64,000 bases of DNA, taken from Marmoricola sp. Leaf446 (GTDB taxonomy: Bacteria > Actinomycetota > Actinomycetes > Propionibacteriales > Nocardioidaceae). Below the pieces are notes generated by a model. It searched no databases and was not told the origin of the DNA. It was given only the letters and a program-made list of their open reading frames with translations. Positions 35,861 to 52,271 of the stretch are shown here, piece after piece (the stretch's first letter is position 1; each line of letters opens with the position of its first letter). Position numbers and translations under genes: made by a program. The stretch covers positions 1-64,000 of the forward strand of contig NZ_LMRF01000002.1 in assembly GCF_001424755.1 (NCBI RefSeq), in the 5' to 3' direction.

Positions 35861-37408
35861 TCAGGTCATGCCGTGCTGCGCCAGCGGGTGCAGCAGCTCC
35901 CGCTCCTCGTAGGAGAGGTGGGAGAGCAGCACGTCGGTGAGCAGGTCGACGGTGCCGGAGAGCGTCTCCAGGGCGGGGCTCGTGCCCGACCCCGCGGCCG
36001 AGACCAGGCCGACCAGCGCGCGGTCGACGTCCTCGAGCACCCCGGCGATCACCTCGTGCTCCTCGTGGAGCCGGTCGAGCACCGGCCCGACCGCGGCGTC
36101 GCTCCGCCGCAGGTGGGTGAAGACGCTGCGGTCCTCCAGGGTGTGGTGGCCGGTCACGATCCGGCAGTAGGACTCGCAGTAGGCGCCCAGCGTCCAGTTG
36201 TTCTGCCGCATCGTCATCGTGTTGACCACCGACCGCGCCTGCCCGACCTGCAGCAGCCCGCGCCGCACCTGGTCGACGACGTCGCGCAGCTGGCCCAGCT
36301 CGGCCCGCAGCGCGTCGTGCACGTCGACGAGGTGCTGCGGGTGGGCCTGCTGCGCCGAGGAGTACGCCGCTCCCGCCGGCACCGGGTAGGTCGGCCGGGT
36401 GCCCTCGTCCCAGGGCAGCCGACCGGCGTGCCGCGTCGTCGGCGGCGGGGTGGGCACGACCTGGACGGTCTCGCCGGTCGAGCTGCCCCGCTCGTCGACC
36501 GACGGGGCCGAGGCGGTCCCGCCCGCCCGGAGCGCCCGCTCCTCGGTCACCAGCGCGCGCACGGCCGGCGCCACCTCGAGAGCGAAGCGGCGGACGTCGT
36601 CGGCGTCGTCGGTGCCGAGCACGAACCCGCTGATCCCCTCGTCGAGCGCCAGCCCGGCGAGCTGCTCGACCCAGTCGCGGACGCCGCCGTCGAGGAAGCC
36701 GGTGCCGGTGCCGAAGCGGCCGGAGAGGTTGTACATCCGCACGATCGCCTCGGGACCGCGGCCGTTGGCGGTGGCCTGCTCATCGATGCGGGCGTTCATG
36801 GCCGCCAGCGCGGGTGGGTCGGCGTACCCCATCGAGGGGATCCAGGCGTCCGCGACGTCGGCGGTGACCCGCAGCATCCGGGGGCCGTAGGCGCCGAGCC
36901 AGATCGGCACGTCGTGCGCGGGGCGCGGGCCGCCGTGCAGGCCGCGGACGCGGTAGTGCTCGCCCTCCTCCCGCACGGTGCCCCCGGCCCACACCGTCCG
37001 GACGATGCGGACGGCCTCGAGGAGCGCGTCCACCGCCTCGCCCGGCGTACGCCGCGGTCCGCCGGCCGCCACCACTGCGTCCCAGAACGCACCGGTGCCC
37101 AGGCCCAGCTCGACCCGGCCGCCGCTGAGCAGGTCGAGGCTGGCCACCGAGCGGGCCAGCACCACGGGCGGGCGCAGCGGCAGGTTGGCGACGTTCGGCG
37201 CGACGGTGATGCTGCGCGTCCGCGCCGCGACCACCGACAGCAGCGTCCAGGCGTCGAGGTGGCGGGCTTGGTAGGGGTGGTCCTGCACCGAGACCAGGTC
37301 GAGCCCGCTGACGTCGGCGAGCAGCGCGAGCTTCAGGGTCTGCTCGCGGCGGGCGGCGTCGGGGCTGGGGAAGATCCCGAAGCGGAGCTCGTGGCCGAGG
37401 TCGGGCAC
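35861..37408 (-). CDS. LLM-class flavin oxidoreductase fused to a hemerythrin domain
   Basis: The 515-residue protein has an N-terminal luciferase-like monooxygenase barrel (residues ~8-300: ELRFGIFPSPDAARREQTLK, SVQDHPYQARHLDAWTLLSV, GRVELGLGTGAFWDAVVAAG). A linker rich in Pro/Thr (~305-340) follows, and a C-terminal hemerythrin four-helix bundle (~345-515). Candidate iron ligands are VDVHDALR, GHHTLED, HEEHEVIAG and HLSYEERELLHP. LLM enzymes use F420 or FMN; hemerythrin binds O2 or senses redox. A fusion could couple O2/NO sensing to flavin chemistry. It overlaps no neighbour and ends 4 bp from the convergent PPOX gene. Confidence 0.85.
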   Translation of the reverse strand: MPDLGHELRFGIFPSPDAARREQTLKLALLADVSGLDLVSVQDHPYQARHLDAWTLLSVVAARTRSITVAPNVANLPLRPPVVLARSVASLDLLSGGRVELGLGTGAFWDAVVAAGGPRRTPGEAVDALLEAVRIVRTVWAGGTVREEGEHYRVRGLHGGPRPAHDVPIWLGAYGPRMLRVTADVADAWIPSMGYADPPALAAMNARIDEQATANGRGPEAIVRMYNLSGRFGTGTGFLDGGVRDWVEQLAGLALDEGISGFVLGTDDADDVRRFALEVAPAVRALVTEERALRAGGTASAPSVDERGSSTGETVQVVPTPPPTTRHAGRLPWDEGTRPTYPVPAGAAYSSAQQAHPQHLVDVHDALRAELGQLRDVVDQVRRGLLQVGQARSVVNTMTMRQNNWTLGAYCESYCRIVTGHHTLEDRSVFTHLRRSDAAVGPVLDRLHEEHEVIAGVLEDVDRALVGLVSAAGSGTSPALETLSGTVDLLTDVLLSHLSYEERELLHPLAQHGMT

Positions 37409-39091: not shown

Positions 39092-39207
39092 GGGGGTCCC
39101 TCCCGGGGTCGGTGACCGACGGGGTCGGTCGGCTGCGGTACGGCGTACCCGGTCCACGCTAGCCAGCGCGACCACGCCCGGGCGGCCCGTCCGATCGGAG
39201 GGGGACT

Positions 39208-39358: not shown

Positions 39359-40579
39359 GTGAGCCTCCTCGCCAGCACCGCCGACCTCGGTCCCGGGGTG
39401 CCGCGCGACCCCGACGGCGACGCCGCGCTCGGTGCGGTGGTGAAGTTCCACGCCCCCGAGGTCGTCTTCGGCGTGGGTGCGCTGGCCGAGGCCGGCTTCG
39501 CGGCCGCCCGACTGGGTGCCCGGCGCCCGCTGGTCGTCACCGACCCGGGCGTGATCGAGGCCGGGTGGGTCGACCTGCTGCTCGGCCACCTCCGGGACGC
39601 GCGCCTGGACCCCCAGGTCTGGCACGACCTCACCCCCAACCCCAAGGACCACGAGGTCCGGGCCGCCCACGCGTGGTACGTCGACCGCGGCTGCGACGTC
39701 ATCATCGCGATCGGCGGCGGCTCGGCCATCGACGCGGCCAAGGGCGTCGCGATCCTGTCCAGCAACGACGGCGACATCCTGGACTACGCCGGCGTCGACC
39801 AGGTGACGCGGCCGATCCCGCCGATGCTGATGATCCCGAGCACCTCGGGCACCGGCGCCGACGTCTCGCAGTTCTGCATCGTCACCGACACCGAGCGCTC
39901 GGTGAAGATCACCGTGATGGGCCGGGCGCTGGTGCCCGACATCTCGCTGACCGACCCGCGGCTGCTGACCACGATGCCCGAGGCGCTCAACGCCGCGACC
40001 GGCCTCGACGCGCTCACCCACGGCATCGAGTCCTACGTCTCGCTGGCCCACAACCCGCTGGCCGACATCCACGCGCTGTCCTCGGTGCGGCTGGTGTGCG
40101 GCCACCTGCGCACCACCATCACCAGCCCCGGCGAGGAGCGCGCCCGCGCCAAGATGGCGCAGGCCAGCCTGCAGGCAGGGCTGGCCTTCACCAACGCGAT
40201 CCTCGGCGCGACCCACGCGATGAGCCACCAGGTCGGGGGCCTGCTCGACGCCCCGCACGGGGTGGTCAACGGGGTGCTGCTGCCCCACGTGATCCGCTAC
40301 AACGCCCGGGCCACGCCCGACCGGTTCGTCGCGCTCGCCCAGGCGGCCGGCCTCGAGGTCGGCTCGGCCCCCGGCGAGGAGGCCGCCGAGATGCTGGCCG
40401 CCCACGTGCGCCGGCTGGCCGACGACGTGGGGGTGCCGCGCGGGCTCGCCGACCTCGGCGTCACCGCGGCCGACGTGCGCCAGATGGCGCACACCGCCCT
40501 CGACGACGCCTGCCTGACCACCAACCCCCGCGAGGCCGACGAGGCCGACGTCCACCGGTTGTTCATGGACGCCCTGTGA
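39359..40579 (+). CDS. Iron-containing alcohol dehydrogenase
   Basis: GTG 39359 gives 406 residues (an in-frame TTG at 39347 is less likely). NAD-binding signature: IIAIGGGSAIDAAKGVA. Metal-site motifs: GLDALTHGIESYVS and ATHAMSHQVGGLLDAPHGVVN, which hold the Asp and three His iron ligands of group III dehydrogenases such as 1,3-propanediol or lactaldehyde dehydrogenases. It is followed 13 bp later by the histidine kinase and is likely cotranscribed with it, suggesting that it is part of the alcohol-response regulon. Substrate uncertain. Confidence 0.88.
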   Translation: MSLLASTADLGPGVPRDPDGDAALGAVVKFHAPEVVFGVGALAEAGFAAARLGARRPLVVTDPGVIEAGWVDLLLGHLRDARLDPQVWHDLTPNPKDHEVRAAHAWYVDRGCDVIIAIGGGSAIDAAKGVAILSSNDGDILDYAGVDQVTRPIPPMLMIPSTSGTGADVSQFCIVTDTERSVKITVMGRALVPDISLTDPRLLTTMPEALNAATGLDALTHGIESYVSLAHNPLADIHALSSVRLVCGHLRTTITSPGEERARAKMAQASLQAGLAFTNAILGATHAMSHQVGGLLDAPHGVVNGVLLPHVIRYNARATPDRFVALAQAAGLEVGSAPGEEAAEMLAAHVRRLADDVGVPRGLADLGVTAADVRQMAHTALDDACLTTNPREADEADVHRLFMDAL

Positions 40580-40592
40580 GCGGGGTCGGGCC

Positions 40593-42023
40593 GTGACCCC
40601 CGCCCGCCCGAGGCGGTCCCGACCCGACCTGGCGCGGCTGACCGGGGTCCGGTCGGGCAAGGGGTCCTACTACCGCGCCTACGTCGCCTCCGACGAGCGG
40701 GTGCAGCGGGCGGTCGTGGCGATGGACTCGATCTCGCGGGCGCTGGTCCGCACCGTCGAGGGGCCGCGCGGCCTGCTCGAGGAGGTGCTGCGCGCCGCCG
40801 CGGCCCACCTCGACGCGCACTGGACGCTGCTGGCCCTGGCCGACGACAGCCTCACCGGGGCCCGGCCGCGGTTCCTGGCCTGTGGCACCGACGGGGTCGT
40901 GGTCGACGACGCACGGTCGCTGCCGGCCGACCTGCGCGAGGTGCTGGCGGCGCTGCGGACGGGTCGGCACCCCGAGGCCCGCGACGACGACGCCTGGGTC
41001 TGGGTGCCGATGACCCTCGACGGCCGGCGCATCGGCAGCCTGGTGGCCCGCCACGGCCTGGAGGCGCCGCCGGAGGCCGGCGACCTGTCGGTGCTGCGCA
41101 TCCTGGCCAACCAGGCGGCGGTGTCGCTGCACACCTCCGAGCAGTACCAGGCCGGGCTGACCCTGCACCGGCGCGCCCAGCAGCTCTACGACGAGGCCAC
41201 GGCGCAGAGCCGCGACCTCGCGGTGCGCACCGAGGAGCTCCGGGCCACCCAGGAGCGGCTGCAGGTCGCCCGGCAGCGCGAGCTGCTCGACACCGAGCGG
41301 CACCGGATCGCGCGCGAGCTGCACGACAGCGTGGCGCAGTACGTCCTCTCCGCCGGCATGTCGGTCGAGATCGCGCGCGGCGACGCCGAGGCGCTGGGGG
41401 ATCCGGCCGCCTCCGTGGTGGCGGCGCTGGCCACGGCCAAGACCCTGTCGGGCGAGGCGGTCGAGCAGCTGCGGCGGGCGATCTTCGCCCTCCACCAGCC
41501 CCACGGCGAGGAGGTGGCGACCCTGCCCGAGCTCGCCCGCGAGGTCGCGGCCCACCACCGCGGCCGGCTCGAGGTCAGCGTCCGCACCCACGGCCGGGTG
41601 CGGCCGCTGCAGGCCCACGCCGACCACGAGCTGGCCCGGGCCATCGGGGAGGCGCTGTTCAACGTGGTCAGCCACGCCGGCGCGCGCCGCGCCGCGGTGC
41701 TGCTGCGCTACCGCGACGACGAGCTGCTGGTCTCGGTCTCCGACGACGGGTCCGGCGACCCGTCGGCGCTGCGGCGGCTGCTCGAGCTGGAGCGGTGCGG
41801 CACCGCCGACGGGCGCCACCGCGGGCTGGCCAACATCGAGTCGCGCATCGTGGACCTGGGCGGCGGCCTGGCCTTTCGCCGTGCCCGCATCGGCGGCATC
41901 CGCGTCGAGCTGCGGCTGCCGCTGGACCCCGACGAGACCGACGCGGTGGTGCCCGCCGGTGCCACGGTCACCGAGCTGGGCCGCACCCCGCGGCCGTCCC
42001 CGCCCCACGAGGAGGTCTCATGA
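40593..42023 (+). CDS. GAF-domain sensor histidine kinase (MnoS/MadS-like)
   Basis: The 476-residue soluble kinase has a GAF-like sensing region at ~50-200 (RTVEGPRGLLEEVLRAAAAH onward), then a coiled segment. A HisKA_3 dimerisation helix follows with the phospho-acceptor in RHRIARELHDSVAQYVLSAG (His near 246), and a HATPase_c domain (GEALFNVVSHAGARRAAVLL, VSDDGSG, GLANIESRI). No membrane segment is present, so it senses a cytoplasmic signal. Its stop overlaps the response regulator ATG by 4 bp. Context next to two iron alcohol dehydrogenases resembles the mycobacterial MnoS/MnoR methanol system; naming is by context. Confidence 0.87.
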   Translation: MTPARPRRSRPDLARLTGVRSGKGSYYRAYVASDERVQRAVVAMDSISRALVRTVEGPRGLLEEVLRAAAAHLDAHWTLLALADDSLTGARPRFLACGTDGVVVDDARSLPADLREVLAALRTGRHPEARDDDAWVWVPMTLDGRRIGSLVARHGLEAPPEAGDLSVLRILANQAAVSLHTSEQYQAGLTLHRRAQQLYDEATAQSRDLAVRTEELRATQERLQVARQRELLDTERHRIARELHDSVAQYVLSAGMSVEIARGDAEALGDPAASVVAALATAKTLSGEAVEQLRRAIFALHQPHGEEVATLPELAREVAAHHRGRLEVSVRTHGRVRPLQAHADHELARAIGEALFNVVSHAGARRAAVLLRYRDDELLVSVSDDGSGDPSALRRLLELERCGTADGRHRGLANIESRIVDLGGGLAFRRARIGGIRVELRLPLDPDETDAVVPAGATVTELGRTPRPSPPHEEVS

Positions 42024-42715
42024 TCGGCACCCCGGTCCGCCCCGACCACGACGAGCCCGGCACCGCGACGGCCGGCCAGGTCGCGATCCTGCTCGTGGAC
42101 GACCACGCGATCGTGCGCCAGGGGCTCACGACCATCCTGCAGCGCGAGCCCGACCTCGTCGTGGTGGCCGAGGCGTCGTCGTCGGCCGAGGCCAAGACCG
42201 CCGTGGAGCGCACCCGGCCCGACATCGTGCTGATGGACCTCAAGCTCTCCTCGTCCTCCGACAGCGAGGGCATCGAGCTGTGCGGCGACCTCACCCGGGC
42301 CCACCCGGACCTGGGCGTGCTGGTGCTGACGACCTTCCTCGACGACCAGCTGGTGCTGCGCGCCATCCGTGCCGGGGCCAAGGGCTACGTCGTCAAGGAC
42401 GTCGACACCTCGGCGCTGATCCAGGCCATCCGCGACGTCTCCCGCGGCGGGAGCGCCTTCGACGCCCGCTCGGCCGCGGCCATGGTGCGCGGGCTGAACG
42501 CCCCGCCCGTCGACGACTCGGCGCGGCTGACCCAGCGCGAGGAGGAGGTGCTCGTGCTGCTCGCCCACGGCATGTCCAACCGGGACATCGGGCGCGAGCT
42601 GTTCATCTCCGAGACCACCGCGAAGTTCCACGTCGGCAACATCCTGCGCAAGCTCGGGGTCTCCAGCCGGGCCGAGGCGGTCTACGAGGGCGGCAAGCTC
42701 GGCCTGCTGGGCTGA
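42020..42715 (+). CDS. NarL/LuxR-family response regulator (MnoR/MadR-like)
   Basis: The 231-residue protein has a receiver (VAILLVDDHAIVRQGLTTIL; phospho-acceptor Asp in DIVLMDLKLSSSS; Lys in GYVVKDVD). A C-terminal LuxR helix-turn-helix follows (LTQREEEVLVLLAHGMSNRD, FISETTAKFHVGNILRKLGV). AGGAGG precedes ATG 42020, which overlaps the kinase stop. It should activate transcription of the surrounding alcohol-oxidation genes when phosphorylated. The receiver insertion SSSSDSEG (residues ~76-83) is slightly longer than usual. Confidence 0.9.
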   Translation: MIGTPVRPDHDEPGTATAGQVAILLVDDHAIVRQGLTTILQREPDLVVVAEASSSAEAKTAVERTRPDIVLMDLKLSSSSDSEGIELCGDLTRAHPDLGVLVLTTFLDDQLVLRAIRAGAKGYVVKDVDTSALIQAIRDVSRGGSAFDARSAAAMVRGLNAPPVDDSARLTQREEEVLVLLAHGMSNRDIGRELFISETTAKFHVGNILRKLGVSSRAEAVYEGGKLGLLG

Positions 42716-42748
42716 GGGGTCCGGGACGGTGCGTGGCAGGGTGACGGC

Positions 42749-44044
42749 ATGACTCCAGCTCCTGGGCAGACGCTCACGGTCCACCTGGCCTACGGCGAGT
42801 CCGGCCTCGACGTCGAGCTGCCGGCCGACCGCACCACCGTGGTCGAGCCGACCTACGTCGAGGCGGCCGACGACCAGCGCGGCCTGCTGCGTCGCGCCCT
42901 GCGCGAGCCCGTGGCCGGCACGCCACTGCGCGAGCTGGTGAGCAAGGGTCAGACGGTGGCGATCTCGATGTGCGACGGCACCCGCCCGCAGCCCCGCCAC
43001 CTGATGATCCCCGCCGTGCTCGACGAGCTCGAGGGCGTCGTCGACCTCGACGACGTGGTCGTGCTGGTCGCGACCGGCACCCACCGTGGGAACACCGACG
43101 AGGAGATCAGGGCCATGCTCGGCGACGTCGCCGACCAGGTGCGCGTGGTCAACCACGACGCCCGCGACGACGCCTCGCTGGTGTGGCTCGGCCGGCACGG
43201 ACGCGGCGTACCGGTGTTCCTGAACCGCGAGTGGGTGGAGGCCGACGTCCGCATCACCACCGGCTTCGTCGAGCCGCACTTCTTCGCCGGCTTCAGCGGT
43301 GGGCCCAAGCTGGTCGCCCCCGGTCTGGCGGGGCTCGAGACGGTCCTGACGCTGCACGACGCCGCCCGCATCGGCGACCCGCGCGCCACTTGGGCGGTGA
43401 TCGAGGGCAACCCGGTCCACGACGACATCCGCGCGGTCGTCGCGGCCGTCGGTGGTGTCGACTTCGGGCTCGACGTGGTGCTCAACCGCGAGCAGCGGAT
43501 CGTGCAGGCCTTCGGTGGCTCGCTCCCGGAGATGCACGCCGCGGCGCGCGAGGCCTCGCAGCGCCTGGCGATGCAGCCGGTGCCGTCGCTGTTCGACGTC
43601 GTGGTGACGACCAACGCGGGCTACCCGCTCGACCAGAACCTCTACCAGGCGGTGAAGGGGATGTCGGCCGGCATGACCGTCGTGCGCCCCGGCGGGACCA
43701 TCGTGTGCGCCGCCGAGTGCCGCGACGGCTTCCCCGACCACGGCTCCTACCGCGAGGTGCTCGCCTCGGAGTCCTCCCCGGAGGCGCTGCTGGCCACCAT
43801 CGCCGCGCGCGAGCGCACCGTCCCCGACCAGTGGCAGGTGCAGGTGCAGGCCAAGGTGCAGGCCCACGCCGACGTGGTCGTGCACTCGGCGTACCTCTCC
43901 GCGCCCGACCTCGCCACCGCCCACCTCGGCCACACCGACGACGTCGCCGAGACCGTGCTGCGCGCCCTCCACGACGCCGGCCCCGACTCGCGCGTCTGCG
44001 TTCTGCCCGAGGGTCCCCAGACGATCCCGTACGTCGCGGGGTAG
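42749..44044 (+). CDS. LarA-like (nickel-pincer lactate racemase family, DUF2088) protein
   Basis: The 431-residue product keeps the residues that define LarA, with its spacing. His112 is in ATGTHRGNTDEE and His177 in TGFVEPHFFAGFSGGPK. Lys187, ten residues later, would bind the pincer nucleotide, and His203, sixteen further, would be the nickel ligand (TVLTLHDAARIGD). In LarA these are His108, His174, Lys184 and His200. The cofactor is made by LarB/LarC/LarE, none of which is in the window. It could racemise or epimerise a 2-hydroxy acid, or have another hydride-transfer role in alcohol metabolism. It sits 33 bp after the response regulator. Confidence 0.85.
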   Translation: MTPAPGQTLTVHLAYGESGLDVELPADRTTVVEPTYVEAADDQRGLLRRALREPVAGTPLRELVSKGQTVAISMCDGTRPQPRHLMIPAVLDELEGVVDLDDVVVLVATGTHRGNTDEEIRAMLGDVADQVRVVNHDARDDASLVWLGRHGRGVPVFLNREWVEADVRITTGFVEPHFFAGFSGGPKLVAPGLAGLETVLTLHDAARIGDPRATWAVIEGNPVHDDIRAVVAAVGGVDFGLDVVLNREQRIVQAFGGSLPEMHAAAREASQRLAMQPVPSLFDVVVTTNAGYPLDQNLYQAVKGMSAGMTVVRPGGTIVCAAECRDGFPDHGSYREVLASESSPEALLATIAARERTVPDQWQVQVQAKVQAHADVVVHSAYLSAPDLATAHLGHTDDVAETVLRALHDAGPDSRVCVLPEGPQTIPYVAG

Positions 44045-44053
44045 CGCTTCTGG

Positions 44054-44073
44054 TTCCCCGGACGTCCGGGGAA
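44054..44073. repeat. Perfect 20-bp palindrome between convergent larA-like and mftM-like genes
   Basis: TTCCCCGGACGTCCGGGGAA is an exact palindrome in the 118-bp gap between two convergent genes, 10 bp after the LarA-like stop. It could fold as a terminator hairpin for both strands (tight ACGT loop, no U-run) or be an operator. The remainder of the gap shows nothing else. Confidence 0.6.
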
Positions 44074-44162
44074 TCTGGTGCTGGGCGGGTGTTGCGACGC
44101 CTGCCAAGGTGAGGGAAAGGCTGCCGAGTCGCCGCCGGAGGTGAGCCTCGCGGGGTCGTCGC

Positions 44163-45110
44163 TCACCCGGTCTCGACGACGAGCCAGCCGCCGTGGTGCT
44201 CGTGGACCTCGTACGGCAGGCCGGTCGACTGGCCCCAGGCGCGGAGGTGGTCGAGGGTGACGGTGCGGACGTGGCCCCAGGTCTCGTCGGCGACGTCCTC
44301 CAGGGGCACGGCGACCACGACCCGGCGCCGGGCCAGCCGGACCGCCTCGGCCACCACCCGGTCGCCGTGCGCGGGGTCGAGGTGCTCGAGCAGGTGCAGC
44401 GCCAGCACGGTGTCGGCGCTGCGGTCGGGGGCGGGTAAGCGGGCCGCGTCGGCCACCCGCGTCTCCAGCCGTACGCCGAGCAGGGGCGCCGTCGTGGCCA
44501 GCAGCCGCATCGTCCCGGCCGACACGTCCGAGGCCGTCACCCGGCGCCCCCCGCCGGCCAGGCGCAGCGACAGGAAGCCGAAGCAGGACCCCAGCTCCAG
44601 CACCGACCCGTCGGCCAGCAGCCGCTCGGCGTGGTCGTAGACCGGCGCGTAGCCCGCGATCGTGCCGTGACCCGACGCGGTGACCGCGGTCGACGCCGAC
44701 CCGTCGCCGGCGACCTCGCGCGCGATCGCCACCAGGCTGTTGCGGTAGAACAGCAGCCAGCTCTCCAGCGGGTCGCTCGTGGCGCTGCGGACCACGCCGG
44801 TGAAGACGCGTTCGAACAGCTCGGTGCCGCGCAGCCAGCCGGGGGTGAACAGCTCGTCGGCGAGCAGCCCGGCGAGGTCGTCGTCGATCCTCGACGCCGG
44901 CACCCAGTGGTCGACGTGCACCCGCATCCCGACGTGCCTGACGTCGAAGTGCTCGGTGCGCACGCTGTCGCGGCTCCACTGCCGCAGCGCCCCGACGGCG
45001 CGGACACGCACCAGGTCGTCGACGTACCAGCCGCCGGGTCCCGCCGGCCCGAGCGGGTCGATCGGCGGCAGCGTCGCCCCGCCGGGCTCGCCGACGTGGG
45101 CCGCGCTCAT
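44163..45110 (-). CDS. mftM: SAM-dependent methyltransferase, MftM-like
   Basis: The 315-residue protein has a class I methyltransferase fold in the C-terminal half: VLELGSCFGFLSLRLAGGGR (SAM loop, ~170), VTASDVSAGTMRLLATTAP, TVLALHLLEHLDPAHGDRVV. The N-terminal ~150 residues (GGWYVDDLVRVRAVGALRQW, HFDVRHVGMRVHVDHWVPAS) are unusual for general methyltransferases. They fit, as I recall the family, the mycofactocin oligosaccharide methyltransferase MftM, which methylates the glycan attached to mycofactocin. Location beside a methanol:NDMA-type dehydrogenase supports this. ATG 45110 overlaps the VWA stop by 4 bp. Identification by context and pattern, not alignment. Confidence 0.7.
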   Translation of the reverse strand: MSAAHVGEPGGATLPPIDPLGPAGPGGWYVDDLVRVRAVGALRQWSRDSVRTEHFDVRHVGMRVHVDHWVPASRIDDDLAGLLADELFTPGWLRGTELFERVFTGVVRSATSDPLESWLLFYRNSLVAIAREVAGDGSASTAVTASGHGTIAGYAPVYDHAERLLADGSVLELGSCFGFLSLRLAGGGRRVTASDVSAGTMRLLATTAPLLGVRLETRVADAARLPAPDRSADTVLALHLLEHLDPAHGDRVVAEAVRLARRRVVVAVPLEDVADETWGHVRTVTLDHLRAWGQSTGLPYEVHEHHGGWLVVETG

Positions 45111-46648
45111 CGCGACCCGGGCGTGGCCGCGATGGTGGCCCGGTCGAGGCCGCTGAGGTTGCGGACGACCTGGACGCGGCTGCAGTACTCCTCGTACGCC
45201 GGCAGGTCGCACCGCCCCAGCCCCCAGGAGTAGCGCGGCTCGGGCGTCAGCCACACCGTCTCCCGCGCCCGCCGGCTCAGCTCGGCGAAGGCGGGCAGGC
45301 CGGGGTCGCGCCCGTTGCTGCGCCCGTCGCCGAGCACCACCAGCGTCGTACGCCGGTTGACCGCGGACCCGAAGCGCTCCAGGAACTCGCCGAACGCGTG
45401 GCCGTAGTCGGAGTCGGCGTCGACGTCGAGCACCCCGTTGGCCGGCAGCCCGGCCAGCACCAGCGAGAGCGCCTCCTCGGTGCGGTGCTCGGCGAAGAGG
45501 TCGGTGATCTCGACGAGGTCGGAGACGAAGGCGAAGGTGCGCACCGAGGAGGTGATCGACTGCAGCGAGTGCACGAGGTGGAGCGTGAAGCGGGCCGCCG
45601 AGCGCACCGACAGCGAGACGTCGCACAGCACCAGCAGCCGCGGCCGGTCCTCGACCTTGCTGACGGTGACGGGGCGGAAGGGCACCCCGTCGTACTTCAT
45701 GTTGGCCCGCATCGTCCGGGCGCCGTCGACGGTGCCCCGGGCGGCGGCCTTGCGGCGGGGGCGGGGGGCGCCGTGCAGGCTCTTGACCAGACGCCGGATC
45801 GCCTCCTCCAGCTGCGCGCGCTCGGTCTCGTCGATGGTCTCGGCCTGGGCCTGCTCGAACTCGCGCTCCTCCAGCTCGCGCTCCATCGACATCAGCTGCT
45901 CGAGGTGCTGCTTGAGCTTCTCGGGCAGCTGCTCCAGGAACGGCGCGAGCGCCTGGCGCAGCGCCTCGAGCGTCTCGGCCTCGCGCACCTCGTCGACCAG
46001 CGAGTCGTCGGGCGCGGTCTCGTCGAGCCACGCGAGCAGCGCCATCTCCTGCGCCACCGAGAGCTCGGTCTCCAGCTGCATGCCGGGCTTGCTCACCAGG
46101 TCGCCCGGGTTGCCGGGGTTGTGCATCCGACTGGTGCTGATCTGCACGCGCGCGGCCTCGCCGGCACTGCCCTCGGTGTCGTTGGAGAGCACGATCTCGT
46201 CGGTCAGCGCCGCGATGTCGATCTTGTTGGCCTCCTGGTGCAGGTTGTACTGCTGGGCCATGTCCTCGGGGCGGAAGAACTCCTTGATGTCGTCGGGCTT
46301 GCCGTGCGAGTGGCCGTCCTCCGGCACGTCGCCCGGCTCCTCGGAGAGCGTGAACTGCTCCAGCTCGCCCTCGTCGGAGAGGTCGTCGTGGGAGTGGCCG
46401 TGGGCGCTGTCGTCCTCGGGCGGCACCACCGCCTGCAGCCCGAAGAACCGGTCGAAGACGGTCTCGAAGGTGGCCAGGTCGCGCCGGTCCTTGACCAGGC
46501 TGACCGCGAGCGCCGACCTCAGCACGGTGCGGTCCTCGAGGACGCTCGGCTGCGCGACGGCGTGCATCGCGTCGACCGCCTCGGCGGTGCTGACCCGCAG
46601 CCCGTGCAGCCGCAGCAGCCGGATGAAGCGGTGGACCGCGCCCTCCAC
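45107..46648 (-). CDS. CoxE-like VWA-domain protein with His-rich acidic region
   Basis: The 513-residue product has an N-terminal helical region, an acidic segment (~95-160) with AHGHSHDDLS and EDGHSHGKPDD, and a coiled-coil stretch (~230-300). A C-terminal VWA/CoxE domain follows with the MIDAS motif CDVSLSVRS (~345) and VVLGDGRSNG. VWA proteins act with MoxR ATPases to insert metals or remodel enzymes (CoxE-CoxD, CbbO-CbbQ, NorD-NorQ). GTG 46648 is served by AGGAGG that overlaps the TAG of the upstream ATPase gene, so the two are coupled. It likely matures the adjacent metal-dependent dehydrogenase. Confidence 0.85.
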   Translation of the reverse strand: MEGAVHRFIRLLRLHGLRVSTAEAVDAMHAVAQPSVLEDRTVLRSALAVSLVKDRRDLATFETVFDRFFGLQAVVPPEDDSAHGHSHDDLSDEGELEQFTLSEEPGDVPEDGHSHGKPDDIKEFFRPEDMAQQYNLHQEANKIDIAALTDEIVLSNDTEGSAGEAARVQISTSRMHNPGNPGDLVSKPGMQLETELSVAQEMALLAWLDETAPDDSLVDEVREAETLEALRQALAPFLEQLPEKLKQHLEQLMSMERELEEREFEQAQAETIDETERAQLEEAIRRLVKSLHGAPRPRRKAAARGTVDGARTMRANMKYDGVPFRPVTVSKVEDRPRLLVLCDVSLSVRSAARFTLHLVHSLQSITSSVRTFAFVSDLVEITDLFAEHRTEEALSLVLAGLPANGVLDVDADSDYGHAFGEFLERFGSAVNRRTTLVVLGDGRSNGRDPGLPAFAELSRRARETVWLTPEPRYSWGLGRCDLPAYEEYCSRVQVVRNLSGLDRATIAATPGSR

Positions 46649-46657
46649 GCCGTCCTC

Positions 46658-47905
46658 CTAGACCGGGCGCTTGCGCGCCGACCGGGCGGCGAAGGAGCGC
46701 TGGCCCTGGGCGGCGCTGACCCGCTTGCCCTCGCCGGCGCGGCCGTCGTCGGAGCTGCCGCCGACCCCGCCGTAGGCGCCGTCGTGGCGCCCGGGCCGGT
46801 CCTTGGCGGCCCGCTTGGCCCGGCCGTCGACGTCGCCGTCGTCGAGCGGGGCGGCGGGGGCCCGCGGCGGCGCCTCGGGCTCGTCGTGGTCGTGGTCCCC
46901 GTCGTGCCCGTGGCCGTGCCCGTGCCCGTGACCGTGGCCGTGCCCACCGAGGCTGTCGGGGACGGTGCGGTTGGGGTCGACCAGGTGGGGGATGGCCCGG
47001 CGCGCCTTGTCGAGGTCGCGCTCGTACTTCACGACGACGTTGAGCGTGGAGGTCAGCACGTCGGCGGTGAGCTCCTCGACGCCGAGCACGGCCAGGGTGC
47101 GGGCCCAGTCGACGGTCTCGGAGATGCTCGGCGCCTTGCGCAGCTCCAGCTCGCGCAGGCCGCGCACGATGTCGACCAGCCGGACGGCGAGGCTCTCCGC
47201 GAGCCCGGTGTCCTTGGAGCGGATGATCGCCAGCTCGCGCTCGGCGGCGGGGTAGTCGAGGAACAGGTGCAGGCAGCGGCGCTTCAGCGCCGCGGACAGG
47301 TCGCGGGTGTTGTTGGAGGTCAGGACGACGTACGGCAGGTGCTTGGCGCGGACGGTGCCGATCTCGGGGATGGAGATCTGGTACTCCGAGAGCAGCTCGA
47401 GCAGCACCGCCTCGAGCGCCTCGTCGGCGCGGTCGACCTCGTCGATGAGCAGCACCACGGGGTCCTCGGAGGAGATCGCCTCCAGCAGCGGGCGGGGGGC
47501 GAGGAAGCGCTCGGAGAAGAAGACGCTGTCCTGGCGGCTGATCCGGTCCACGGCCTCGGTGAGGTCGGCGGCGTCCTCGACGACCTGGCCGATCTTCTCG
47601 CGCAGGATCTGGGTGTACAGCATCTGCTTGCCGTAGTCCCACTCGTAGAGCGCCTTGGTCTCGTCCTGGCCCTCGTAGCACTGCAGCCGCAGCAGCCGGC
47701 GGCCGGTGACCGCGGCCAGGCTGGCCGCGAGCTGGGTCTTGCCGACGCCGGCGGGGCCCTCGAGCAGCACCGGCTTGTCGAGCCGGGTCTGCAGGAAGAC
47801 CGTGGTGGCGAGGCGCTCGTCGGCGAAGTAGCCCGCGTCGGCGAAGCGCTCGAGAGTGTCGGTGACGCTCGCGAAGTCGGCGGCGGGGGCGGCGGTGTCG
47901 GCCAC
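46658..47905 (-). CDS. MoxR-type AAA ATPase with His-Gly metal-binding tail
   Basis: GTG 47905 (AAAGGA about five bases upstream) gives 415 residues. AAA core: LLEGPAGVGKTQLAASLAA (Walker A, ~50), VVLLIDEVDRADEALEAVLL (Walker B, ~155), VVLTSNNTRDLSAALKRRC (sensor 1 and Arg finger). After residue ~320 the chain becomes disordered, with a run of His-Gly dipeptides (GHGHGHGHGHGHGHDGDHDH) and then Lys/Arg-rich sequence to the end. MoxR ATPases with a VWA partner act as metal-cofactor chaperones. The His tract probably binds Fe, Ni or Zn. It lies 90 bp downstream of the methanol dehydrogenase-like gene. Confidence 0.87.
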   Translation of the reverse strand: MADTAAPAADFASVTDTLERFADAGYFADERLATTVFLQTRLDKPVLLEGPAGVGKTQLAASLAAVTGRRLLRLQCYEGQDETKALYEWDYGKQMLYTQILREKIGQVVEDAADLTEAVDRISRQDSVFFSERFLAPRPLLEAISSEDPVVLLIDEVDRADEALEAVLLELLSEYQISIPEIGTVRAKHLPYVVLTSNNTRDLSAALKRRCLHLFLDYPAAERELAIIRSKDTGLAESLAVRLVDIVRGLRELELRKAPSISETVDWARTLAVLGVEELTADVLTSTLNVVVKYERDLDKARRAIPHLVDPNRTVPDSLGGHGHGHGHGHGHGHDGDHDHDEPEAPPRAPAAPLDDGDVDGRAKRAAKDRPGRHDGAYGGVGGSSDDGRAGEGKRVSAAQGQRSFAARSARKRPV

Positions 47906-47950
47906 GGGGGTCCTTTGCGCGTACGTCGGGGTGGGGGTGCTGGTGGTCGG

Positions 47951-47981
47951 TCGGGCCCACCCGGCGGGTGGGTGGACCCGA
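47951..47981. terminator. Stem-loop between the dehydrogenase and AAA ATPase genes
   Basis: CCCACCC (47956-47962) and GGGTGGG (47966-47972) pair with a GGC loop, and an outer TCGGG/CCCGA extends the stem. It lies about 15 bp past the dehydrogenase stop on the minus strand, with no U-tract. It could attenuate read-through so that the dehydrogenase is made in excess over its chaperones, or stabilise the 3' end. Confidence 0.5.
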
Positions 47982-47994
47982 CCGACGAGGGGGG

Positions 47995-49287
47995 TCAGGC
48001 GAGCAGGTCGTCCAGGTCGCCGTTCATGCAGTGGTCCACCACGGGGCGGACCGTCTCGAAGGTGCACTCCTTGGCGTTGCCCGGCGTGCAGGCGTCGCCC
48101 AGGACGTGGTTGGTGATGCGGTCCACGTCGGCGTCGTCGCCGGTGATCACCTTGGAGTCCTCGTAGAACTTGGTCGGGCCGGTGCCCAGGCGGTTCTTGG
48201 AGTAGGTGTCGCTGGTGATCTCGGTGAAGCGCTCGGTGATCCCGACGTCGCGCAGCAGCCTGATCGAGGCGGCCAGCGCGGCCTCGGCGGCCTGCACGTC
48301 GGTCATGCCGTGGGTGTCGATGTCCATCGCCCGGGCGATGTCGGCGAAGCGCTTGTACTGCGCCGGCATGTTGAAGGCCCACACCCGCGGCAGCGCGATG
48401 GCGTTGTTGAGCCCGTGGTGGGTGTCGTAGAACGCCGACACCGCGTGGCTGATGGAGTGGATGATGCCGAGGCCGCCGGAGTTGAAGGCCTGGGCGGCGA
48501 TGTACTGCGCGTACATCATCCCCTCGCGACCGGCGAGGTCCTGGCCGTTCCACACCGCCGCGCGCAGGTGCTGGTTGGTGAGCTTGATGGCGTGCAGGGC
48601 GTTGCCCAGCGAGGGCTGGAAGTCCAGCCGCGAGACGTAGGGCTCGGAGGCGTGGGCGAGCACGTCGAAGCCGCACTGGGCGGTGTAGTCGACCGGGCAG
48701 TCGAAGTAGAGCACCGGGTCGTCGATGGCCAGGCTGGTCACCGAGGCGTCGTCGAAGGCGACGTACTTGTGCGGGTTCTCGGGGTCGGTCGTGGTGTCGG
48801 TGATGACGTAGGCCCACGAGGTCTCCGAGCCGGTGCCGGCCGTGGTGGAGACCGCGATGTGCGGCGGGTTCTTCGGGTTCTCGGACATGTTGAAGCCCTC
48901 GAACTCGTTGACGTTGCGGCCGTCGTGGGCCACCGAGACGCGGGCGCCCTTGCAGGCGTCGTGCGAGGAGCCACCGCCGATGGAGACGAAGGAGTCGCAG
49001 GCGTTCTCCTGGTAGAGCGCCACCGAGTCCATGACGTTGTAGTCCTTGGGGTTGGACTCGACCTTGTCGTAGACCACGACCTCGAGGCCGTGGTAGCGCA
49101 TCGACTCCACGATCTTGTTCACGATGTCGGTGCCGCGCAGGCCCGAGGTCATCACCAGCGTCTTCTTGAAGCCCAGCTTGAGGGCCTCCGGGCCGATCAT
49201 CTCGTGGGCGCCGGGACCCATCAGGGCGCGCGGGAACGGGTGGAACTCCTTGATCGGGAACGGCTTGAGCAGCTCGTCTACCTGCAT
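47995..49287 (-). CDS. mno: Methanol:NDMA oxidoreductase-like iron/zinc alcohol dehydrogenase
   Basis: The 430-residue product starts MQVDELLKPFPIKEFHPFPR (AGGAGG nine bases upstream). KEFHPFPRAL, VESNPKDYNVMDSVALYQEN, SIGGGSSHDACKGARVSVAH, PPHIAVSTTAGTGSETSWAY and IIHSISHAVSAFYDTHHGLN match, from memory, the actinobacterial methanol:NDMA oxidoreductases (Mno/Mdo) closely. The Asp/His metal ligands (FDVLAHASE; HSISHAVSAFYDTHH) are present. This group holds NAD(P)H very tightly; re-oxidation depends on mycofactocin in vivo or the artificial acceptor NDMA. It oxidises methanol or other short alcohols, and starts the minus-strand mno-AAA-VWA-mftM group. Confidence 0.9.
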   Translation of the reverse strand: MQVDELLKPFPIKEFHPFPRALMGPGAHEMIGPEALKLGFKKTLVMTSGLRGTDIVNKIVESMRYHGLEVVVYDKVESNPKDYNVMDSVALYQENACDSFVSIGGGSSHDACKGARVSVAHDGRNVNEFEGFNMSENPKNPPHIAVSTTAGTGSETSWAYVITDTTTDPENPHKYVAFDDASVTSLAIDDPVLYFDCPVDYTAQCGFDVLAHASEPYVSRLDFQPSLGNALHAIKLTNQHLRAAVWNGQDLAGREGMMYAQYIAAQAFNSGGLGIIHSISHAVSAFYDTHHGLNNAIALPRVWAFNMPAQYKRFADIARAMDIDTHGMTDVQAAEAALAASIRLLRDVGITERFTEITSDTYSKNRLGTGPTKFYEDSKVITGDDADVDRITNHVLGDACTPGNAKECTFETVRPVVDHCMNGDLDDLLA

Positions 49288-49500
49288 GGGGGGATGCCTC
49301 CTGGCTGGGTGCGGATCCCGGGGCGACGGAGCGACCGGGGGCTGACGTCGCGACGCTAGGCGTGGCAGTGACGCACGGCACAGACGAGGATCGACAAACC
49401 CTGCGTACGCCCGTGCCCGCGCCCGCCACCCGGGCGTCGTCCACCTGCCCGACCGGACGGGAAGGCCGCGGGGGTGGGCCCGGGGGGTTACGGTCACCGG

Positions 49501-50756: not shown

Positions 50757-52271
50757 GTGGCGCAGCAGACCACGCGGTGGCTCTTCGGCGACCAGCTCGG
50801 TCCCCACTTCGCCGAGGACCACGACGGCGACTTCGTGATGATCGAGTCGCGGCGGGTCTTCGCCCGCAAGCGCTACCACCGGGCCAAGGCCCACCTGATC
50901 CTCTCGGCGATGCGTCACCGGGCGGCCGAGCTCGGCGACCGGGTCCGCTACGTGCAGTCCGGCACCTACGTCGAGGGGCTCGGTCGGCGCACCCGCGACC
51001 TCCAGGTGGTCGCCCCCACGTCGTACGCCGCACGGGGGCTGGTCGACCGGCTCGTCGAGGACCCCGACCGTCCCCGCGACATCGAGCGGCTGCCCGCCCG
51101 CGGCTTCGTCACCACCCAGGAGGACTTCGCCGGGTGGGCCGAGGGCCGCGACGGCAAGCGGCTGCTGATGGAGGACTTCTACCGCGACGCGCGGCGGCGC
51201 CACGGCGTGCTGCTTGAGGGCTCCTCGGCCGACCCCGAGGGCGGCCGGTGGAACCTCGACCACGAGAACCGCGAGCCCCCGCCGAAGGGCGCCACCACCC
51301 TCGGCGTCGACCCGCCGCCGTGGCCCGAGGAGGACGAGATCGACGCGCAGGTGCGCGCCGACCTCGACCGCTGGGAGGCCGACGGCGACGTGTCCTTCAT
51401 CGGCCGTGACGGTCCGCGGCTGTTCGCGGCGACGCACGCCGAGGCCGAGTCGGTGCTCGACCACTTCCTGTCCCACCGGCTGGCGACCTTCGGCGCCCAC
51501 GAGGACGCGATCCTCGAGGGCGACCCGTGGATGTCGCACTCGGTGCTGTCGGCGCCGATGAACCTCGGGCTGCTCGACCCGCTGGACGTCGTACGCCGGG
51601 CGGAGGAGGTCTACCGCTCCGGTGACGCCCCGCTCGCCTCCGTGGAGGGGTTCGTCCGGCAGGTGATGGGCTGGCGCGACTACGTCTGGCACCTCTACTG
51701 GCACCTCGGCCCCGACTACCGCACCCGCAACCACCTGCAGCACCGGCGCCGGCTGCCCGACTGGTTCGCCCAGCTCGACGGCGCGGCCACCCGCGCGCGC
51801 TGCCTGTCCCACACCCTCGACGGCGTCGCCGAGCGCGGCTGGGTGCACCACATCCCGCGGCTGATGGTGCTCGGCTCCTACGGCCTGCAGCGCGGCTGGG
51901 CGCCGCAGGAGCTGACCGACTGGTTTCACCGCGCCTTCGTCGACGGCTACGACTGGGTGATGGTGCCCAACGTGGTCGGGATGTCGCAGCACGCCGACGG
52001 CGGGGTGCTGGCCACCAAGCCCTACACCTCCGGCGGCGCCTACATCAACAAGATGTCCGACCACTGCGGCTCCTGCGAGCTCAAGCCGACCGTCCGGGTG
52101 GGCGAGGACGCCTGTCCCTTCACGGCCGGCTACTGGTGGTTCCTCGACCGCCACCGCGAGGAGCTCGCCACCAACCACCGGATGGCCCGGCCCGTCCAGG
52201 GCCTGGGTCGCCTCAAGGACCTCGCCGAGCTGGTCGAGCAGGAGGAGTCCCGGGGCTCCGACCCGCCCTAG
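50757..52271 (+). CDS. FeS-BCP cryptochrome/(6-4) photolyase-related protein
   Basis: The 504-residue flavoprotein opens with RWLFGDQLGPHF (FeS-BCP antenna domain). Its C-terminal FAD domain includes GFVRQVMGWRDYVWHLYW, MVLGSYGLQRGW and DGYDWVMVPNVVGMSQHADG. Cysteines in RCLSHTLDG, DHCGSCELK and EDACPF supply four ligands for the [4Fe-4S] cluster characteristic of PhrB-type prokaryotic (6-4) photolyases. It repairs UV (6-4) photoproducts using light. Length matches the family (~500). GTG 50757 starts 14 bp after the exporter stop. Confidence 0.93.
   Translation: MAQQTTRWLFGDQLGPHFAEDHDGDFVMIESRRVFARKRYHRAKAHLILSAMRHRAAELGDRVRYVQSGTYVEGLGRRTRDLQVVAPTSYAARGLVDRLVEDPDRPRDIERLPARGFVTTQEDFAGWAEGRDGKRLLMEDFYRDARRRHGVLLEGSSADPEGGRWNLDHENREPPPKGATTLGVDPPPWPEEDEIDAQVRADLDRWEADGDVSFIGRDGPRLFAATHAEAESVLDHFLSHRLATFGAHEDAILEGDPWMSHSVLSAPMNLGLLDPLDVVRRAEEVYRSGDAPLASVEGFVRQVMGWRDYVWHLYWHLGPDYRTRNHLQHRRRLPDWFAQLDGAATRARCLSHTLDGVAERGWVHHIPRLMVLGSYGLQRGWAPQELTDWFHRAFVDGYDWVMVPNVVGMSQHADGGVLATKPYTSGGAYINKMSDHCGSCELKPTVRVGEDACPFTAGYWWFLDRHREELATNHRMARPVQGLGRLKDLAELVEQEESRGSDPP

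Follow-up and report, generated by a model that had tools for sequence, protein, structure and literature searches.

The 64-kb window analysed here (64,000 nucleotides of Marmoricola sp. Leaf446, contig NZ_LMRF01000002.1) contains, at positions 39359–49287, eight genes arranged in two convergent operons. The plus-strand operon, ADH-madS-madR-larA, encodes an iron-type alcohol dehydrogenase (Fe-ADH), a sensor kinase, a response regulator and a racemase, and the minus-strand operon, mno-madB-madC-mftM, encodes the dehydrogenase Mno, an ATPase–VWA pair and a methyltransferase. We consider it likely that the genes form an alcohol-responsive regulon of MnoSR (MadSR) type, in which MadR, through its box, also raises the synthesis of mycofactocin, the cofactor encoded by mft genes elsewhere in the genome. 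Gene content, a 20-bp palindrome and the distribution of this palindrome were read directly from the sequence, and the analysis suggests that one alcohol sensor may switch on both enzyme and cofactor. In the scheme proposed, i) soluble MadS, encoded with the Fe-ADH, would phosphorylate MadR, ii) MadR would bind the palindrome at the outer end of each operon and activate both of them, iii) it would also raise mycofactocin synthesis through the palindrome at the mft promoter, beside a separate MftR operator, iv) Mno would oxidise short alcohols using bound NAD, with electrons passing to mycofactocin methylated by MftM, v) MadB and MadC would help to load or activate the metal site of Mno, and vi) LarA would be accessory and could interconvert lactate enantiomers derived from 1,2-propanediol.

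The 20-bp palindrome (consensus ACCTGTCCGATCGGACAGGT) is common to the regions upstream of mno and of the second alcohol dehydrogenase gene, that of the Fe-ADH (hereafter ADH). Using a matrix trained without the window, we found the mno site about 156 bp 5' of the start codon, and it kept first rank in all three trainings from which a clade was left out. The ADH site ranked second with two of these trainings and lay outside the top four when only mno promoters of Nocardioidaceae were used for training. Sites above the 99% level of shuffled sequences were present in 79 of the 83 regions preceding mno and in 31 of the 55 preceding the ADH gene, and the box precedes mno in 54 of the 55 named loci having both MadS and MadR. 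Loci and genomes of the surveys are given below, where needed, as L and G numbers, G000 being the genome of the window. The box is also located 5' of mftM wherever this gene has its own promoter (L139, L037, L038 and L034, that of L034 being shared with mftA), and precedes the ADH gene in loci without mno (L133, L141 and L142).

The mft genes were found on another contig of the same genome (G000:C1, about 526.1–532.9 kb). Genes mftB, C, D, E and F as well as mftR score above their cut-offs (mftC with 648 bits), mftA was recognised by its C-terminal IDGMCGVY, mftR adjoins mftABCDEF, and a mycofactocin-coupled short-chain dehydrogenase/reductase is present too; an absence of mycofactocin genes from the genome is therefore rejected. 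A preliminary description of the locus had placed mftABCDEF outside the window, which is borne out, and had regarded the module as self-contained; the latter does not hold, as mft sits elsewhere in the genome yet carries the same predicted operator. In a 20-kb stretch around the mft operon, the best site scores 11.3 bits and is situated between mftR and mftA. Since the same palindrome occurs in the mft promoter of this genome and of most tested mno-bearing genomes with mft elsewhere, we infer that MadR is the protein which binds there and raises mycofactocin synthesis. Among the genomes that could be scored, the mft promoter has a box of at least 10 bits in 8 of the 9 that bear mno with mft elsewhere, but in 0 of the 65 that bear mft and lack mno (Fisher 6e-10, relatedness not taken into account), and three leave-clade-out trainings gave the same 8/9. 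The nine genomes span few lineages: four are of the window's genus, one is Nocardioides and four belong to another family. The promoters came from mno-bearing genomes of two samples and from mft-bearing genomes without mno (input 10 + 5 + 69), of which G006 (contig end) and G102, G200, G224 and G157 (mftA missing, or stretch too short) were dropped; the leave-clade-out run gives 66 genomes without mno (one short stretch retained), and 65 were used. The box was also present in all five genomes in which mft adjoins mno, but these were rejected as evidence because four of the five (L043, L045, L054 and L108) are in the training set of the matrix.

The grouping of the genes of the locus is beyond chance. 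A scan of named genomes with the Mno alignment kept 80 loci, and gene content was counted in the 68 in which the flank downstream of mno is 9 kb or longer. MadB and MadC are encoded beside mno in 67 of these 68 loci, MftM in 56, and MadS together with MadR in 52, of which 51 also have the ADH (in the remaining one the sequence stops within the kinase region). MadB, MadC, MftM, MadR, MadS and ADH occur together in 42 loci, and one more adds LarA. Of the 236 genomes of a class sample, 7 have Mno above its cut-off, 6 of them with MadS; MftM was found in exactly the same 7 genomes, and MftC in 72 that comprise these 7, so that MftM follows Mno and not mycofactocin as such. In loci of Geodermatophilus, Klenkia and several Pseudonocardia, no MftM was found within the flanks covered. 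The search for co-conservation across Actinobacteria that the preliminary description had suggested thus gave strong co-occurrence. Upstream flanks of 9 kb or more are available for 67 named relatives, and in 45 of these mftC is found no further than 10 kb upstream of mno; a looser count (51 of 73 loci) adds six short-flank loci kept because mftC was seen in them, and 45/67 is the unbiased figure. In 46 of the 51, mftC is divergent from mno, and in 5 (L047, L051, L052, L062 and L067) it runs in the same direction. Since mftC is near mno in most named relatives, the two have apparently become separated in the present genome, with the box at mft retained.

The positions of the open reading frames (ORFs; Table 1) confirm the eight genes, their order, and the overlaps and gaps described earlier: the kinase and regulator genes overlap by 4 bp, as do the VWA and MftM genes, the ATPase and VWA genes are 9 bp apart, and the gap between LarA and MftM is 118 bp. 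All eight ORFs have high third-position GC. Five of the proteins (Mno, MadS, MadR, LarA and MftM) pass their NCBIfam cut-offs, and MadS and MadR, above curated cut-offs and in the same locus as mno, belong to the MnoSR/MadSR family. For MadB, MadC and the ADH, the best models (the last being ErcA) stay below cut-off; the first two are labelled MadB- and MadC-like because their scores fall short while domain make-up and gene order agree. The Mno segment SNPKDYN matches the mycofactocin-linked hot spot of Haft 2011. MadS is predicted to be soluble, having no hydrophobic segment above 1.16 on the Kyte-Doolittle scale, with an N-terminal region of GAF type; GAF was detected in 9 of the 16 family members scanned (the MadS alignment leaves out one member, L068). 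These assignments support the preliminary description in that an Mno-type dehydrogenase is encoded together with MftM, a two-component system and a MoxR/VWA pair, and the genome bears mycofactocin genes.

Table 1. Genes and predicted MadR boxes of the alcohol oxidation locus (positions in the 64-kb window; NDMA, N,N-dimethyl-4-nitrosoaniline)
Feature	Position	Strand	Basis
Predicted MadR box of the ADH-madS-madR-larA operon, GCCCGTCCGATCGGAGGGGG	39185..39204	.	13.6 bits, rank 2 in the 64-kb window
Fe-ADH (ADH1), iron-type group III, ErcA/DhaT-like	39359..40579	+	NCBIfam top model ErcA, 474.5 bits (cut-off 550)
Sensor histidine kinase, MadS/MnoS family	40593..42023	+	NF047786, 514 bits (cut-off 500)
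Response regulator, MadR/MnoR family, LuxR-type	42020..42715	+	NF047785, 332 bits (cut-off 300)
LarA-type nickel-pincer 2-hydroxyacid (lactate) racemase	42749..44044	+	NF033504, 526 bits (cut-off 460)
MftM, mycofactocin oligosaccharide methyltransferase	44163..45110	-	NF041255, 327 bits (cut-off 200)
MadC-like VWA-domain (CoxE-type) protein	45107..46648	-	Pfam VWA_CoxE; MadC model, 293 bits (cut-off 600)
MadB-like MoxR-type AAA ATPase, His-rich C-terminal tail	46658..47905	-	Pfam AAA_5; MadB model, 368 bits (cut-off 475)
Mno/Mdo, NDMA-dependent mycofactocin-associated methanol/alcohol dehydrogenase	47995..49287	-	TIGR04266, 671.6 bits (cut-off 625)
Predicted MadR box of the mno-madB-madC-mftM operon, ACCTGCCCGACCGGACGGGA	49443..49462	.	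20.5 bits, rank 1 in the 64-kb window

Two neighbouring features of the window are worth recording. A single ORF (35861–37408) fuses a luciferase-like (LLM class) oxidoreductase domain to a hemerythrin domain, and a tRNA-Val call by ARAGORN (51491–51590, minus strand), probably a false positive, lies inside a photolyase-related ORF (50757–52271).

The locus is a relative of the published mno cluster of Mycobacterium smegmatis, MSMEG_6236-6242, and most of it is already known. In M. smegmatis, too, genes for Mno, an AAA ATPase, a further protein, an Fe-ADH, a kinase, MftM (MSMEG_6237) and a regulator are clustered (PMC6529628, PMC11303327, PMC7174638, PMC11778925), and control is positive, as is predicted here, by a two-component system acting through a palindrome upstream of mno: MnoS phosphorylates MnoR, which binds a palindrome 137 bp upstream of the gene (PMC11303327). 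Ethanol induces MSMEG_6236-6242, and growth on ethanol requires MSMEG_6242 (Mno) (PMC6529628); mnoSR mutants do not grow on 1,3-propanediol or ethanol (PMC11303327); mycofactocin is methylated by MftM (PMC11778925); and expression of the cluster drops with excess zinc and in a zur mutant (PMC7174638). The present locus differs in that i) it forms two convergent operons, whereas M. smegmatis has one operon plus mftM, ii) it has an extra larA, and iii) each operon, and the distant mft operon too, has a predicted box, whereas a single copy was reported there. For the methanol/short-alcohol module proposed earlier, 'methanol' is too narrow, since the M. smegmatis orthologues are needed for ethanol and 1,3-propanediol (PMC6529628, PMC11303327). 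The second ADH, which had been taken to lack an established role, has a counterpart in MSMEG_6239 of the M. smegmatis operon, named a putative 1,3-propanediol dehydrogenase and under MnoSR (PMC11303327, PMC11778925). New here is the palindrome shared by mno and the second ADH, which is also found at the mft promoter. A search confined to open-access literature, and so not extending to the original MnoSR paper, yielded no description of mft being controlled by MnoR/MadR or of LarA in an mno locus.

Pairs of a MoxR-type ATPase and a VWA protein include CoxD/CoxE, NorQ/NorD and CbbQ/CbbO. As in these pairs, an AAA ATPase gene is followed here by that of a VWA_CoxE protein, both adjoining the enzyme that they would mature; unlike them, the client would be a group III ADH, and MadB has a His-rich tail. 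All 75 MadB relatives examined have at least 5 His within 20 residues and 71 of them at least 7, whereas the His motif of MadC is shorter (at least 5 His in 20 residues in 8 of 74). The conserved tail supports a part for MadB in metal handling, though it does not name the metal, and newly supports the view that the pair may insert the metal of Mno. A literature search for the names MadA, MadB and MadC turned up only other Mad proteins. Just 3' of the mft operon of the same genome, on the opposite strand, lies a gene for another AAA ATPase, whose MadB/GvpN-type score is weak (L003:15105-16945). In G139, a gene for a CbiM-type cobalt/ECF transporter (L036:11167-11922) lies beside a second mno copy, with an 18.9-bit box just upstream (11946); among 97 sequences searched this arrangement was seen at one locus only, plus a partial match on L142. 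A cobalt-transport cluster of M. smegmatis was expressed less on glucose once MnoSR had been removed (PMC11303327). A metal importer may belong to the regulon in some species.

Two roles can be considered for the second ADH. The ADH could be a catabolic dehydrogenase of 1,3-propanediol or another diol, co-regulated with mno and having no part in sensing, a reading to which we give an even chance. Its closest relative in PDB is 1,3-propanediol oxidoreductase (3bfj), its nearest solved structures in general being propanediol oxidoreductases; its metal-ligand positions are intact, as they are in 19 of the 20 aligned family members; and both the name given to MSMEG_6239 and the failure of the mnoSR mutant on 1,3-propanediol agree with such a role. 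The other reading, which we put forward tentatively and with somewhat less confidence, is that the Fe-ADH may be the alcohol-sensing subunit of MadS, its substrate binding or turnover setting the activity of the kinase, and that MadR may then activate Mno, the metal-loading pair, the methyltransferase and cofactor synthesis together. ErcA, a regulatory protein by name, is the best NCBIfam model of the ADH by 147 bits; as the score is under the NF041833 cut-off, the ADH is not filed as ErcA and is only possibly ErcA-like in action, the comparison resting on model scores. In addition, all seven ADH homologues of at least 48% identity in the class sample adjoin a MadS-type kinase, including that of G023, where ADH and kinase are on a contig without mno and the kinase is under the MadS cut-off. 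Loci lacking mno keep the ADH together with the kinase or the regulator.

Plasmid-borne homologues bear further on this question. A plasmid survey gave four records at 56% identity or more to the ADH, one of which carries the whole locus. On the M. chubuense NBB4 plasmid (L140), ADH and MadS are present, MadR is matched over the first 131 of 231 residues only (the receiver part), and no box was found in the 25 kb scanned; the ADH-MadS pair there (L140:1-15000) faces an operon for a soluble di-iron (alkene/methane-type) monooxygenase with an NDMA-dependent ADH and GroEL. Two Rhodococcus plasmids (L141 and L142) carry ADH and MadR with strong upstream boxes (26.0 and 20.3 bits), no MadS being found within 12 kb of the ADH; the order is that of a ligand-less ADH homologue, a MadR-type regulator and a PepSY-domain gene (L141:11890-14274 and L142:11959-14304). 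At four aligned positions, which we take to be the metal ligands of group III ADHs, the Rhodococcus plasmid proteins (one of which is among the 20 members aligned above) have changed from D to E, H to N, H to Q and H to Y. Both reading frames are intact, and the pairwise dN/dS (0.046/0.298) indicates that these ADHs are under purifying selection despite the lost ligands. Loss of all four ligands together with retention beside MadR and its box would fit a sensor or scaffold role and speaks against a purely catabolic one, although the ADH of the window, with its ligands intact, may be an enzyme too. A sensor or scaffold role has been proposed for ErcA/YiaY in pseudomonads, where a gene for a cytoplasmic Fe-ADH likewise lies beside that of a histidine kinase (PP_2683/ErcS) and the ADH and the LuxR-type regulator (AgmR/ErbR) are needed to activate the alcohol-oxidation cluster (PMC12997753). 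That system differs from the present one in that its kinase is a hybrid and in that pyrroloquinoline quinone (PQQ) enzymes and pqq genes are controlled, and the window ADH, as noted, is under the ErcA cut-off.

LarA, which had been counted as a member of the module, is a lineage-specific member and not part of its core, being present in 1 of the 68 named loci and, in Nocardioidaceae, in the mno locus of 5 genomes (G000, G239, G299, G307 and G276). Nine of 120 Nocardioidaceae genomes have LarA, all nine with larC; of the other four, two that were examined have LarA elsewhere and two are without mno at E 1e-150. In the window's genome larC and larB adjoin each other (LarC1 190 bits and LarB 271 bits, with cut-offs of 90 and 175). 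There is nearly an even chance that LarA is a passenger at a permissive convergent junction, unrelated to alcohol oxidation. It is missing from 67 of the 68 named loci, other and unrelated genes fill the same gap in other species, LarA of G288 adjoins an alpha-galactosidase-type gene, and that of G265 has none of the other seven genes adjoining and only a distant kinase-regulator pair. On the other hand, larA is located 33–98 bp 3' of madR and in the same direction in five genomes of two genera, and Mno and LarA occur together in 6 of 120 genomes, against 0.75 expected under independence. In 16 named loci the same gap contains a gene of the GPR1/FUN34/YaaH acetate-transporter type, another acid-product gene; a family search was used to check three of these loci. 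Rhodococcus jostii without the mycofactocin-associated dehydrogenase EgaA grows more poorly on L-1,2-propanediol (PMC11166783), and we infer from this phenotype that lactate formed from 1,2-propanediol is a plausible substrate of LarA.

It is improbable that the mft palindrome is the operator of MftR or of some other regulator than MadR and that its presence at mno reflects that regulator: mft is indeed known to be controlled by MftR via a palindrome 5' of mftA (consensus T-N2-GGCA-N5-TGCC-N2-A; PMC8728441), and of 16 mno loci that have no MadSR within 9 kb, 11 keep the box, but the MftR consensus differs from the box, which is missing from the mft promoters of genomes without mno and precedes ADH-madSR, ADH-madR and ADH-madS-like units with neither mno nor mft alongside. 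Exact or one-mismatch matches to the MftR consensus lie downstream of the box in G000, G299, G307, G139, G078 and G239; in the window's genome the best of them is just downstream of the box and distinct from it in sequence, and an identity of the box with the MftR operator was rejected on these grounds. The mft operon here thus resembles the known MftR-controlled one, with mftR adjoining mftABCDEF and an MftR-like operator, but has upstream a second, unrelated palindrome, found only in mno-bearing genomes.

Several points weigh against the proposal that MadR governs both the locus and mft. The mft site of the window's genome is weak and identical in two close relatives, G222 is the single miss among the nine mno-bearing genomes with mft elsewhere, and the boxes at mno loci without MadSR, given above, count here as well. 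G006 has Mno and MftM, and neither MadS nor ADH was found in it, its mno contig being 6.2 kb long. Away from mno and ADH starts, sites of at least 10 bits occur about once per 29 kb. A degenerate 20-base pattern occurs at 51 places in 43 of the 236 genomes; as 47 of these places belong to genomes without Mno above cut-off, it was rejected as a genome-wide marker for lack of specificity. A box-like palindrome of 23.5 bits, stronger than the mno site and probably due to chance, lies inside a gene for an Fpg/Nei-type DNA glycosylase (L159:1500-1519; G000:C6, about 525.2 kb). Identity of the palindrome with the published MnoR consensus is presumed here. In M. smegmatis, the MnoR consensus was reported as single-copy, at mno; under carbon starvation eight genes changed in the mnoSR mutant, namely the mno operon and three others, mft not being named; and the words mycofactocin and mft are absent from the main text of that report (PMC11303327). 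These M. smegmatis reports argue against a general control of mft through the box.

In M. smegmatis more mycofactocin is made on ethanol (PMC11778925), yet MftR, the only regulator named in the articles covered, responds to long-chain acyl-CoA (PMC8728441). With a MadR box at mft, alcohol would act on the cofactor by a direct route that can be tested. As MftM occurs where Mno does, the methylated form of mycofactocin may serve Mno and not mycofactocin enzymes generally. If the ADH is indeed the sensing partner of MadS, Actinobacteria with mycofactocin and pseudomonads with PQQ would share a dehydrogenase-kinase logic that ties cofactor supply to alcohol. Whether a dehydrogenase has turned sensor can be tested cleanly on the metal-free ADH homologues beside MadR.

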